The notes beneath the pieces were generated by a model that did no database searches, was not told the DNA's origin, and worked only from the letters and a program-made list of their open reading frames with translations. From positions 2,877,734 through 2,941,733 of the forward strand of contig NZ_AQXI01000001.1 in assembly GCF_000376445.1 (NCBI RefSeq): a stretch of 64,000 bases of DNA, read 5' to 3'. The position numbers and the translations under genes are program-made. Below, in pieces: positions 16,417 to 38,782 of the stretch (positions are counted from its first letter, which is position 1; each line of letters starts with the position of its first letter). This DNA comes from Haladaptatus paucihalophilus DX253. Its GTDB lineage: Archaea; Halobacteriota; Halobacteria; Halobacteriales; Haladaptataceae.

Positions 16417-16559
16417 CCAGCGCGCGCCACAGTGGAACGGTAGAAGGGGTCTCGTCACGGTGTGTCGGTCGTCGTTTCGTGGCAACCGACGCGAGAAACC
16501 ACCTCCGCGCTATCGTAGCGGGTAGTCACCGTTTTATCCGTCCGGTCGCAAAAGCGGGT

Positions 16560-18287
16560 ATGACCGACCCCGCGACCCTCGACGTGACGCTCGTGGACGG
16601 CTACGTCGACGAACCGGCTCACTTCGGCGTGCCGCCGTACATCTCGACGTACCCGCGCTACACCGCCGGGGCGCTCGTGGATGCGGGGGTGCCGGAGGAA
16701 CGGATCACGTACCACACCATCGACGAACTCCGGGAGGACAACGCGAAGTGGGCGGACGTGGCCGATGCCGACCTGTTCGTCTACATCGGCGGGATGACCG
16801 TTCCCGGCAAGTACGTCGGCGGGACGCCCGCCGAACCGGACGAGGTGCGGAAGATGGCGTGGACCGCCGACGGGATCAGTTTGATGGGCGGTCCCGTGAA
16901 GTTCGGCGTCGGGGACGAGAACGCGGGCGGAACCCAAACGGAGCGCGACGACCTCGACTTCGATTTCGTGGCGAAGGGCGACGTGGAAGCCGCCGCCTTC
17001 GACCTCGTGGACAGCGGTTTGGAGGGTTACAACAATCGGATGCGGGACAACGAGGAGGTGGACCGCTGGGCGGAAGCGGGCGCGTTCGTGGTCGAACAGC
17101 ACCCCAACCATCCCGACTACCTCATCTGCGAGATGGAGACCTCGCGCGGGTGTCCCTACCGCTGCTCGTTCTGCACGGAACCGCTGTACGGCAACCCGTC
17201 GTTCCGCGAACCCCAGTCCGTCGTCGCGGAGGTGGACGGCCTCTCGAACCGCGGCGTCCGCCACTTCCGACTGGGGCGACAGGCCGATATCCTCGCCTAC
17301 GGCGGGGACGGCGAGAAGCCGAACCCGGACGCGCTCCGCGAGTTGTACGGCGGGATTCGTGAAGTCGCGCCGGACCTCGGGACGCTCCACCTCGACAACA
17401 TGAACCCCATCACCATCGTCGAGTGGCCCGAACCGTCCCGCGAGGGGATTCGCGTCATCGCCGAGCACAACACGCCCGGCGACACCGCCGCGTTCGGTCT
17501 CGAATCCGCGGACCCGGTGGTGCAGGAGCAGAACAACCTGAACGTCACCGCCGAGGAGTGTTTCGAGGCGGTGAAAATCGTCAACGAGGAGGCGGGCTGG
17601 CGACCCGGAGAATCGCCCGACGACGCTCCGACGCACGGCCCGGACGCCGCGAACCGACTGCCGAAACTGCTCCCCGGAATCAACCTGCTTCACGGCCTGA
17701 AGGGCGAGCGAAAAGAGACGTTCGACCACAACCGCGAGTTCCTCCAGCGCGTCTACGACGAGGGGCTGATGCTCCGCCGGGTGAACATCCGGCAGGTCAT
17801 GGCGTTCTCGGGCACGGAGATGAACTCGGTGGGGACGGACATCGCCGACGACCACAAACGACTGTTCAAGCAGTACAAGAGCGAGGTCCGCGAGAAGATA
17901 GACAACCCGATGCTCCAGCGGGTCGCCCCGCCGGGGACCGTGCTGCCGAACGTCCACCTCGAATACCACAAGGACGGGCGAACCTTCGGACGCCAGTTGG
18001 GGACCTATCCACTCTTGGTCGGGATTCCGGGCGAGCGCGAACTCGGCCGAACCATCGACGTGGCCGTCGTGGACCACGGCTATCGCTCCGTCACTGGCGT
18101 GCCGTACCCGCTGGACGTGAACAGCGCGACGATGGACGAACTCACCGCGATTCCCGGTCTCGGCAAACAGCGCGCCGGAAACGTCATCGTCAACCGCCCC
18201 TACGAGACGCCGGACGACCTCGCCGAGACGGTGGACGTGGACCTCAGCAAGTACGCCGGGGCGAGCGTCTCCAGAAACGCGGACTGA
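16560..18287 (+). CDS. Radical SAM protein with C-terminal helix-hairpin-helix
   Basis: A 575-residue radical S-adenosylmethionine enzyme. The [4Fe-4S] motif CPYRCSFC (CxxxCxxC) follows METSRG at about residues 195-206. The first 190 residues look like a B12-binding/Rossmann-type domain without clear cobalamin residues. The C-terminus carries a helix-hairpin-helix (DVNSATMDELTAIPGLGKQR) for DNA or RNA contact. A TTTTAT box 23-29 nt before ATG 16560 supports this start; the frame opens earlier at 16479. The overall design resembles archaeal radical SAM-HhH proteins of unknown reaction. Confidence 0.92.
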   Translation: MTDPATLDVTLVDGYVDEPAHFGVPPYISTYPRYTAGALVDAGVPEERITYHTIDELREDNAKWADVADADLFVYIGGMTVPGKYVGGTPAEPDEVRKMAWTADGISLMGGPVKFGVGDENAGGTQTERDDLDFDFVAKGDVEAAAFDLVDSGLEGYNNRMRDNEEVDRWAEAGAFVVEQHPNHPDYLICEMETSRGCPYRCSFCTEPLYGNPSFREPQSVVAEVDGLSNRGVRHFRLGRQADILAYGGDGEKPNPDALRELYGGIREVAPDLGTLHLDNMNPITIVEWPEPSREGIRVIAEHNTPGDTAAFGLESADPVVQEQNNLNVTAEECFEAVKIVNEEAGWRPGESPDDAPTHGPDAANRLPKLLPGINLLHGLKGERKETFDHNREFLQRVYDEGLMLRRVNIRQVMAFSGTEMNSVGTDIADDHKRLFKQYKSEVREKIDNPMLQRVAPPGTVLPNVHLEYHKDGRTFGRQLGTYPLLVGIPGERELGRTIDVAVVDHGYRSVTGVPYPLDVNSATMDELTAIPGLGKQRAGNVIVNRPYETPDDLAETVDVDLSKYAGASVSRNAD

Positions 18288-18346: not shown

Positions 18347-18398
18347 GAGGGAGCGGTAGGCCGGTGACACACCCACCAGAAATCGGCCGGTGACACAC
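18347..18398 (-). repeat. 26-bp repeat pair, left inverted arm
   Basis: Two 26-bp units (18347-18372 and 18373-18398) read on the reverse strand as GTGTGTCACCGGCC followed by a variable half (GATTTCTGGTGG in one). They match the three forward-strand units at 19232-19309 in inverted orientation, on the other side of the TRAM-domain gene. Confidence 0.7.
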
Positions 18399-18420
18399 CC
18401 GCTAGTGACCAGCGGTTCCA

Positions 18421-18561
18421 CCGCGAGTGAGGAACGAACGAGCGGGCCGCCGCTTTCATTTTACATTGGAAGAGCTTCGCTCTTCCATGCGCCATTCAAG
18501 CGGCGTGCTTTTGGTCGAGCTTTTTATCGAAGGTCGCGAGCGACCCTCGATAAAAGGTCGT
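18421..18561. repeat. Composite hairpin module, left of the TRAM gene
   Basis: In order: a GAGTGAGGAACGAACGAGCG tract, a triloop hairpin GGAAGAGC-TTC-GCTCTTCC (18468-18486), the 18-nt motif GCTTTTGGTCGAGCTTTT (18507-18524), and a hairpin TATCGA-GGTCGC-GA-GCGACC-TCGATA (18525-18552) flanked by T and A runs. The same order of parts recurs at 38573-38747 before menB. The last hairpin, just after the TRAM gene stop, could end its transcript. Confidence 0.65.
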
Positions 18562-18993
18562 TTAGAACTCTTCTTCGATGATTTCGCCGACGGCGAAGTT
18601 CGACTTGACTTCCGTGATTTCGACCTTTACGCGCTCGCCGATTTCCGCGCCGGGGACGATGATGACGTAACCCCGCTCGACGCGGGCGATACCGTCGCCC
18701 TGCTTGCCGATGTCCTCGACTTCGACGTAGCGGATTTCTCCGGCCTCGACGGGTGGCTGTGGTTCCGACGAGACGGAGCCGGTGTTGGCACTCGATTGTG
18801 TTGTCGTCGTCGCTGTTTGCTCGTCGTCCGATTCTTCTTCCGTCTCCCGCGAGATAAGCGCGACACGGTAGGTTTCTCCCGGTTCGACTGAACCCGTGTC
18901 GATTTCACGTCGTGGAACTGAGACGACATACTCGTCGCCTTTGAGAGTAACATCAGCGCTGAACAGACACAGGAGCTTGTCAGAGATTTCCAA
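18562..18993 (-). CDS. TRAM-domain protein
   Basis: A 143-residue protein with a C-terminal TRAM RNA-binding beta-barrel (residues about 85-143: EIRYVEVEDIGKQGDGIARV, GYVIIVPGAEIGERVKVEIT). It is preceded by a Ser/Thr/Gln-rich linker and an N-terminal domain starting LEISDKLLCLFSADV. Single TRAM proteins in archaea bind RNA and can act as cold-response RNA chaperones. Start choice: a strong GGAGGT at 19003-19008 sits 9 nt before a TTG at 18993, which begins the family-like LEISDKLL. ATG at 19032 is an alternative with no such site. Mirrored repeat arms flank the gene. Confidence 0.8.
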   Translation of the reverse strand: MEISDKLLCLFSADVTLKGDEYVVSVPRREIDTGSVEPGETYRVALISRETEEESDDEQTATTTTQSSANTGSVSSEPQPPVEAGEIRYVEVEDIGKQGDGIARVERGYVIIVPGAEIGERVKVEITEVKSNFAVGEIIEEEF

Positions 18994-19002
18994 GGGTCGT
19001 AG

Positions 19003-19008
19003 ACCTCC
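19003..19008 (-). promoter_or_regulatory. Shine-Dalgarno deciding a TTG start
   Basis: The reverse strand reads GGAGGT, 9 nt before TTG at 18993. This favours initiation at TTG rather than at the in-frame ATG at 19032, since the site lies inside the longer frame. Confidence 0.55.
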
Positions 19009-19071
19009 ACATGAATCCAAGTAGTCAACCATTATAGAATTATCGAACACCAGCTTTTGCTGCGGTCAGGA

Positions 19072-19211
19072 GCCGAATCCGGCGCTATTAGCGCCGGATT
19101 CGGCCTTCCTTCCTGGCAAAATCTGGACCAAAAGCCGTCGTCACCTCCGTCCGTCGTGCCAAGGGCACTCCGTTGGTCGCTCCTCGGCCCGGAAAATCTC
19201 CGATTTTCCGG
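19072..19211. repeat. Composite hairpin module, right of the TRAM gene (inverted)
   Basis: This mirrors the left module. It has a 14-bp perfect stem GCCGAATCCGGCGC / GCGCCGGATTCGGC with loop TATTA (19072-19104). Next comes AAAATCTGGACCAAAAGC (19118-19135), the reverse complement of the GCTTTTGGTC-type motif with two changes from the left copy. Last is a triloop hairpin CCGGAAAATC-TCC-GATTTTCCGG (19189-19211). No ORF is supported in 19033-19373. Confidence 0.65.
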
Positions 19212-19231
19212 AGGGTTGCTAGCTTCCACGG

Positions 19232-19309
19232 TTGTGTCACCGGCGGGTTTCCGATGGTTGCATCACCGGCCGGTTTCTGGCGGCTGTATCACCGGCCTAT
19301 CGCTCGCGG
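19232..19309 (+). repeat. 26-bp tandem repeat, three units, right arm
   Basis: Units at 19232-19257, 19258-19283 and 19284-19309 share the core TNTCACCGGC or ATCACCGGCC, followed by GGTTTC-type sequence. Spacing is exactly 26 bp. They are the inverted counterparts of the units at 18347-18398. Confidence 0.7.
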
Positions 19310-19373: not shown

Positions 19374-20012
19374 TCAGCTTTCGTACGCTGTTCCGTCGGG
19401 GTTCTTCGCGCCTTCCGAGTCGTGAACGACGATTTCGCCCGGGTCGGGGTTCGCGGGGTCGTAGTTGTCGCGCACGCCGATGGCCTCTTCGAGTTCGCGG
19501 ACGGCACGTTCCTTGAGCGCCGCCGCGAGTTCTTCGGCGTGTTCTCTGTCGATGTTGCGGCCGAGGCCCTCGCACTCGTGGGCGCGGACGACTCCCGACT
19601 CGTCCACGGGGTCGCCCATCGGCTGGCTCGTCCCGCCGAGCGCCACGCTGAAGGGGTACGTCCGGCAGATGAGCGGTCGGTCGGGGTGGACCGAACACGC
19701 TCCGATTCCGTCCTCGTAAAACCGACAGTCGCCGCAGTCGTCGGTCTGGAGCGCCCACTCGAACGTCTCGCCGCCGTCCTCGGTCAGACCGAAGGGCATG
19801 GGTCGGGCCACGTCCCGAAAGTCGTACTCGGTCGTCTCCTGCAATTCGCGCACTTCGTCGGGGAAGACGGTCGCAGTGTGCGGGTCGTCTGCTTCGCTCG
19901 TACAGCAGGCACCACAGCGCGTGCACTCGAACCCGATGTCCTCGATCGCGTCCGCGAGGTCGGTTACGTCGAGCGACTTCGCCCGTTCCAGTTCGGCTTC
20001 GAGAGTTTCCAC
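19374..20012 (-). CDS. YkgJ-type cysteine-cluster protein
   Basis: A 212-residue protein of the Fe-S/zinc cysteine-cluster family (YkgJ, CxxxCxxCC). The cluster FECTRCGACC gives C30, C33, C36 and C37. More Cys lie in DDCGDCRFYEDGIGACSVHP and PLICRTYPF, the usual second half of the family. Members bind a metal, possibly a zinc or Fe-S centre; the function is mostly unknown, though some have been linked to flagellin lysine methylation. The C-terminal part is helical and acidic. No operon partner overlaps it. Confidence 0.88.
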   Translation of the reverse strand: METLEAELERAKSLDVTDLADAIEDIGFECTRCGACCTSEADDPHTATVFPDEVRELQETTEYDFRDVARPMPFGLTEDGGETFEWALQTDDCGDCRFYEDGIGACSVHPDRPLICRTYPFSVALGGTSQPMGDPVDESGVVRAHECEGLGRNIDREHAEELAAALKERAVRELEEAIGVRDNYDPANPDPGEIVVHDSEGAKNPDGTAYES

Positions 20013-38560: not shown

Positions 38561-38782
38561 CGCGAGCGAGGAGCGTAGTGACGAGCGAGCGGGCCGACGA
38601 CCGAGCGGAGTTCTCGTGAGCGAAGCGAACGAGAGTACGGAAGACGCTTTGCGTCTTCCGGAGCAACGCGAAGCGAGGGAGGAGTGCTTTTGGTCCAGCT
38701 TTTACAGGGAACCAACAAGAGCGATGGCGAACGCCATCGCTCTTGTTTGTGACCGTCGTAAAAGGTGGGTGGTAAAAGGTGC
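38561..38782. repeat. Composite hairpin module downstream of menB
   Basis: It has the same order of parts as at 18421-18561: a GAGCGAGCGGGCCG tract (about 38583), a triloop hairpin CGGAAGACGC-TTT-GCGTCTTCCG (38638-38660), the 18-nt motif GCTTTTGGTCCAGCTTTT (38686-38703), and a perfect 16-bp hairpin AACAAGAGCGATGGCG / CGCCATCGCTCTTGTT (38714-38747). It ends about 35 bp from the menB stop, so it may serve as menB 3-prime end. Confidence 0.65.

Follow-up and report, generated by a model that had tools for sequence, protein, structure and literature searches.

The window (the whole stretch of DNA analysed, 64,000 nucleotides) lies on the 2.95-Mb contig C1 of a genome that groups with Haladaptatus, its close matches being named Haladaptatus species. 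It carries a TRAM-domain gene flanked by a radical-SAM gene (RSAM) and a CxxCxxCC gene (Table 1). The stop codon of TRAM occupies 18562-18564; as many homologues from other genera begin to align with it only at residue 13-14, its start may be TTG at 18993, 39 nt further in than ATG at 19032, the start of the longest reading. All the parts listed in the original prediction (repeats, triloop hairpins, a motif, and hairpins around the gene) are present within 18347-19309. The hairpin to the right of TRAM (19072-19104) is perfect, with 16 bp, and the one to its left (18522-18555) is 94% paired.

Table 1. Genes, element copies and repeats at the TRAM locus, and the third element copy of the window.
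Feature	Coordinates	Strand	Evidence
Radical-SAM gene (RSAM), conserved left neighbour of TRAM	16479..18287	+	PF04055; synteny
Two ~26-bp repeats, left arm	18359..18410	-	repeat families D4 and I1
Left triloop hairpin TGGAAGAGC-TTC-GCTCTTCCA	18467..18487	.	sequence
3'-boundary copy, stem I + ACCAAAAGC	18507..18565	-	model R1 34.3 bits, E 2e-4; hairpin
TRAM-domain gene	18562..19032	-	PF01938, E 1.7e-15; longest likely reading; conserved part from ~18993
5'-boundary copy, stem I + ACCAAAAGC	19045..19135	+	model R1 85.7 bits, E 7.6e-17 (copy also part of the R1 training alignment); hairpin
Right triloop hairpin CCGGAAAATC-TCC-GATTTTCCGG	19189..19211	.	sequence; hairpin type recurs in other copies
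Three ~26-bp repeats, right arm	19230..19307	+	repeat families D2 and I1; pattern matches
CxxCxxCC gene, conserved right neighbour of TRAM	19374..20012	-	PF03692; synteny
Third stem I copy in the window	38686..38773	-	model R1, E 9.5e-13; near stop codon of another gene

Every part had been predicted to reappear on the other side of TRAM in inverted orientation, and for the pairing this is the case: complementarity reaches 84% over 50 nt between the outer arms (18351-18400 and 19256-19305) and 89% over 18 nt for the inner motif (18507-18524 and 19118-19135); the copy numbers do not mirror each other, two repeats on the left facing three on the right. When the left gap was aligned locally to the reverse-complemented right gap, the score was 61, as compared with at most 28 in 50 mononucleotide shuffles. 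The sequence GACCAAAAGC occurs three times in the window, where 0.07 occurrences are expected; searched alone in the whole genome, it gave 20 matches against 16 for the reversed-pattern control, i.e., no clear enrichment. The 15-nt repeat pattern (up to three mismatches allowed) showed no enrichment over the whole window (8 matches, 6.4 expected), with five of the eight located at the TRAM locus, and the repeat core showed a modest enrichment in the genome (18 versus 5). In genome G003 (locus L012), the TRAM arms are close inverted copies of each other (alignment score 146 over 204 nt), which suggests recent gene conversion between the two.

The TRAM arms belong to a dispersed family of structured intergenic elements, with one copy per arm. 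The original prediction had offered, as one of its two readings, that the gene had acquired copies of a dispersed repeat at either end, and this was borne out. Copies placed side by side share a common plan: stem I, with a T4/A4 outer stem, is followed by ACCAAAAGC, by more hairpins (often CCGGAAAATC-NNN-GATTTTCCGG), and by the ~26-bp repeats. Stem I itself has a conserved internal loop (GACGGTCG / CTCCCTG) and an inner hairpin of very different sequence from copy to copy. At TRAM, the stem of the 3' copy (about 18516-18560) adjoins the stop codon, and that of the 5' copy (about 19050-19126) lies upstream of the gene. A BLAST search of the right arm against its own genome gave many partial copies, almost all on C1, the longer ones 71-88% alike. 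With a model of stem I (R1) built from 17 sequences, we identified 33 distinct copies in the source genome, all on C1 (2.95 of 4.32 Mb), and none on contigs C2-C6; these 33 were kept from 38 matches, after three reverse-strand overlaps and two weak partial matches were dropped. The third copy in the window is at the 3' end of a 298-aa gene and has orthologous copies in three other Haladaptatus species. Five copies on C1 (at 79100, 370427, 370899, 2206670, and 2593449) have extra hairpin modules, of two recurring types, inserted in the 3' part of stem I.

The element is widespread among the Halobacteria: the stem I model has matches in 122 of 194 genomes and in 52 of 65 genera, with 13-37 copies in each of the eight other Haladaptatus genomes and 5-40 per genome in g2, a genus of the same family that includes Halorussus. 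In a phylum-wide draw of 120 genomes, eight from outside this order matched, all of them weakly (E of at least 6.8e-5). The eight source sequences submitted to Rfam 15 gave no matches at E <= 1. The search for the element beside TRAM covered 83 of the 110 TRAM loci (L004-L113); it adjoins the gene in Haladaptatus, in Halorussus and, weakly, in Natrinema and others.

The fold of stem I is well supported by the alignment of the copies. In the 110 copies that could be fitted to the model, a sample that leans towards structure, 96.1% of the cells expected to pair do so, compared with 81.5% after shuffling. Two-sided changes number 201, against 52.7 in shuffles (none of 500 was as high), and although kinship among the copies inflates such counts, the covariation score of 0.369 (0.101 shuffled, 0/500) is still cut to 0.062 or less when the partners are slid by 1-3 columns. 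Covariation could also arise from template-switch correction of palindromes, without selection. We also observed a three-way dependence between columns 7 and 166 of alignment A2 and the tail: an outer A-T pair goes with the tail ATC in 17 of 19 cases, and where the outer pair is C-G or G-C the tail is mostly ACC.

We compared the positions of 123 copies (33 from the source genome and 90 from eight other species) with the ends of genes called by a home-made codon scorer. The relatives (G001-G008) gave 188 matches, from the listed best of which 80 stretches were chosen, excluding those at TRAM loci; 90 of the 94 matches in these stretches were kept, the four weakest being dropped. Of the 123 copies, 71 have their stem base flush at a stop codon (-8 to +15 nt); several of the R1 training sequences began at stop codons, and the first 5-6 positions of the model may lean that way, but it is the stem that fixes the position. 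In another 40 copies the stem base lies 8-65 nt upstream of a start codon, and 12 copies break the rule. Where a 3' gene end faces the stem base, 71 of 73 copies are flush, whereas uniform placement within those gaps predicts 3.9; where a 5' gene end does, 39 of 46 lie within 8-65 nt, with 8.3 predicted. The tip side of the element has no copy flush and none within 8-65 nt, partly because the tip bears the further modules. Among 18 copies from other genera, eight are flush at a stop codon and four lie 35-58 nt upstream of a start; the remaining six fall outside the rule as called, including two (L216 and L218) that are TRAM 5' copies, at which the gene finder did not place the TRAM start.

With the stem base turned to the gene, mirror images necessarily arise around any gene that is bounded by a copy on either side, and TRAM is the only gene in the source genome with the element on both ends. 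The original prediction had seen the mirror correctly, but missed the orientation rule behind it, as well as the inversion of the gene in place (see below). Tip-to-tip pairs of elements within one gap occur at three places on C1 (370427-371036, 991026-991622, and 1380953-1381916).

As its other reading, the original prediction had proposed a composite element of about 960 bp, with TRAM as its cargo; the mirrored arms would then be the ends of a composite transposon. The gene order radical-SAM, TRAM, CxxCxxCC, MBL-fold is common to many haloarchaea, across families, with or without the arms; so TRAM is a fixed resident of this locus and not cargo. In addition, arms are found singly at many unrelated genes, and no target-site duplication, as such an element might have left at its outer ends, was seen by eye outside 18351 and 19305. 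All 20 matches listed, of 63, from a plasmid collection are to the TRAM gene, and none of them to the arms. We therefore give the transposon reading almost no credence; arms that mirror each other across a gene are not necessarily the ends of a transposon.

Most copies of the element appear to be old and inherited, since 108 of the 123, in 29 clusters, have the same end of the same gene occupied in another species (at least one of these clusters holds two copies from one genome and may therefore mix paralogous genes); for the source genome alone, 24 of 33 copies have an orthologous copy in another species. The outer sequences are more alike within clusters than between loci (0.82 versus 0.76), but the inner hairpins, compared for the 109 of 123 copies within the length limits, are hardly so (0.57 versus 0.52). 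Among the 97 copies that have an ortholog, 64 find their closest inner-hairpin match at another locus, and near-identical inner hairpins (up to 97%) are found at different genes. Inner hairpins thus appear to have been copied between loci, by gene conversion or by insertion.

Such exchange, the modular hairpins and repeats, and the number of copies per genome are also what one might expect of a dispersed mobile element of the MITE, PATE or small-mobile-repeat type, which a trans-acting enzyme would insert with a strong preference for T-rich gene boundaries and whose function for the host would be incidental; PATEs and SMR-A elements are described precedents in haloarchaea (PMC3119063). The gene ends shared between species are at odds with recent mobility, the 71-88% likeness of the longer BLAST copies does not indicate a recent burst, and no target duplication is visible; moreover, an insertion preference alone offers no obvious route to the base-to-gene orientation seen at the boundary in 110 of 119 cases. 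On balance we consider this reading a serious possibility, if an unlikely one; recent mobility finds no support in the shared positions, and the element may have an older mobile origin.

The orientation of TRAM at its conserved locus differs between species, the segment being present both ways. Relative to the radical-SAM gene, TRAM is in the opposite orientation at 32 loci and in the same orientation at 31 (duplicates counted, both neighbours present); the 54 distinct loci divide into 27 and 27, and a quick tree of the neighbour genes for these loci requires at least five changes, of which supported branches force four. For the family alone (26 loci), the tree requires four changes (bootstrap range 3-5), with two forced by supported branches. 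The orientation is constant inside clades, for example in all 12 Haloferax, and is stable in Natrialbaceae too. Within Haladaptatus, four species that form one supported clade have one orientation and five species the other; on this distribution, the orientation change in Haladaptatus is old.

The flanks of TRAM in Haladaptatus indicate where the breakpoints lie. The outer sequence on the RSAM side stays with RSAM in both orientations of TRAM (mean score 41, versus 21.6-24.4 for cross pairs; the CxxC-side outer sequence gives a weak signal, 26 versus 22-24), and the promoter-side and stop-codon flanks travel with TRAM. The breakpoints would thus lie inside the arms, as expected of recombination between inverted arms, and we suggest that arm-to-arm recombination probably flipped TRAM in place in Haladaptatus: the two copies at TRAM, being inverted repeats, would recombine with each other and turn the gene between them. 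Arms of this kind score 37-146 as inverted repeats in five Haladaptatus genomes and 58 in one Halorussus (scoring skipped L093, L101, L105, and duplicate loci). Most loci outside Haladaptatus, in either orientation, have no inverted repeat now, so the arms cannot account for every flip. Over the haloarchaea as a whole, arms and flips could not be linked, Halorussus litoreus being the only species outside Haladaptatus among the loci scoring at least 37. In Halorussus, eight loci have a copy at the TRAM 5' side, six of them in one orientation and two in the other.

These inversions raise the question of whether the arms serve mainly as recombination sites for turning TRAM around, as in an invertible switch. 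The even division of the 54 loci, the changes that their tree requires and the inverted-repeat scores of the arms all agree with such a role; however, constancy inside clades makes a fast switch unlikely, most genera of either orientation have no inverted repeat now, and the same element occurs singly at many genes. Neither of the two genes next to TRAM, which were examined for this, encodes a recombinase (their products belong to PF04055 and PF03692). A switch as the main role of the arms is, in our judgement, distinctly improbable.

Instead, we favour the reading, at a probability of about 0.58, that the arms are two copies of one boundary element, most likely a bidirectional terminator or insulator, and that their inverted arrangement makes TRAM flippable. 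In Haloferax volcanii, intergenic terminators are described as T stretches whose efficiency in a reporter is 95%, and one hairpin as terminating 59% in a reporter; the median 3' UTR is given as 97 nt (PMC7237163). Of 110 copies of stem I, 107 bear TTTT on their 5' strand, with the T-run at a median of 7 nt downstream of the stop codon (69 copies). On the opposite strand, the complements of GTAAAAG and ACCAAAAGC supply two T4 tracts (AAAA is found in 105 of 110 copies and the tail AAAA in 109 of 110). From this composition, the element probably terminates transcription in both directions. Behind a gene, it would end the transcript of that gene as well as incoming antisense transcripts; behind a promoter, it would block transcripts from outside. 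Any inner stem sequence would seem to serve, and this would account for inner hairpins that are swapped at positions that are kept. Several TRAM 3' flanks that lack the element have a T-run soon after the stop codon, as if the element grew around a native terminator. Against termination, each T4 tract is short, and a T-run only ~7 nt behind the stop codon is far from the 97-nt Haloferax median; in addition, a terminator alone leaves the ~26-bp repeats, the extra hairpins, and the copies behind promoters unaccounted for.

A role of the element as an RNA ligand of the TRAM protein, through whose hairpins the protein would regulate both its own gene and a regulon, would fit the archaeal TRAM proteins with RNA chaperone activity (PMC6705878) and the presence of the element beside TRAM in several genera. 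The case for it is positional only; copies lie beside many unrelated genes, and TRAM has several paralogues per genome, and we consider this role very unlikely.

Beyond the TRAM locus, a wider and more speculative reading, which we offer tentatively and hold to be rather doubtful as a whole, is that these copies represent a class of haloarchaea-wide boundary element that inherits its position, outer stem, and internal loop, while its inner hairpin is a slot refilled from the palindromes of other loci. The outer stem would come from fold-back copying, in which the T-run terminator of a gene is mirrored and a one-way terminator becomes a two-way insulator, and pairs of elements around a gene would make that gene flippable. 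If the boundary-element reading is right, most haloarchaeal genera have gene ends marked by a structured, modular element absent from Rfam. This would provide a testable model of how archaea build bidirectional termination and a clear example of cassette-like exchange of hairpins at fixed sites, and it would mean that a single gene can invert repeatedly with its neighbours undisturbed.

A search of the literature by title and start of abstract found no description of this element, which does not establish its absence from print. Bacterial intergenic palindromes of the REP/BIME type likewise have many intergenic hairpin copies and composite modules; the element differs from them in that its inner stems are not conserved but swapped, and that it keeps a set position with respect to gene ends. 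Invertible DNA segments served by site-specific recombinases have, as here, inverted repeats around a segment found both ways; unlike them, the TRAM locus has no recombinase seen, an orientation fixed per clade, and divergent repeats. The terminators described for Haloferax volcanii (PMC7237163) are similar in having a T-run downstream of genes, and one tested hairpin there terminated; unlike those described, the element forms a defined fold, with covariation and a conserved internal loop; it would act on both strands, is also found behind promoters, and bears further hairpins and repeats. Among the elements described, PATEs and SMR-A of Haloquadratum are the nearest (PMC3119063): PATEs are reported as tied to IS605-type transposons, with strain-specific insertions, and SMR-A elements as inserting within palindromes without target duplication. 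Similar to both, the element is short, transposase-free, palindromic, and dispersed in haloarchaea; unlike the PATEs described there, it lies at positions common to several species, against gene ends.
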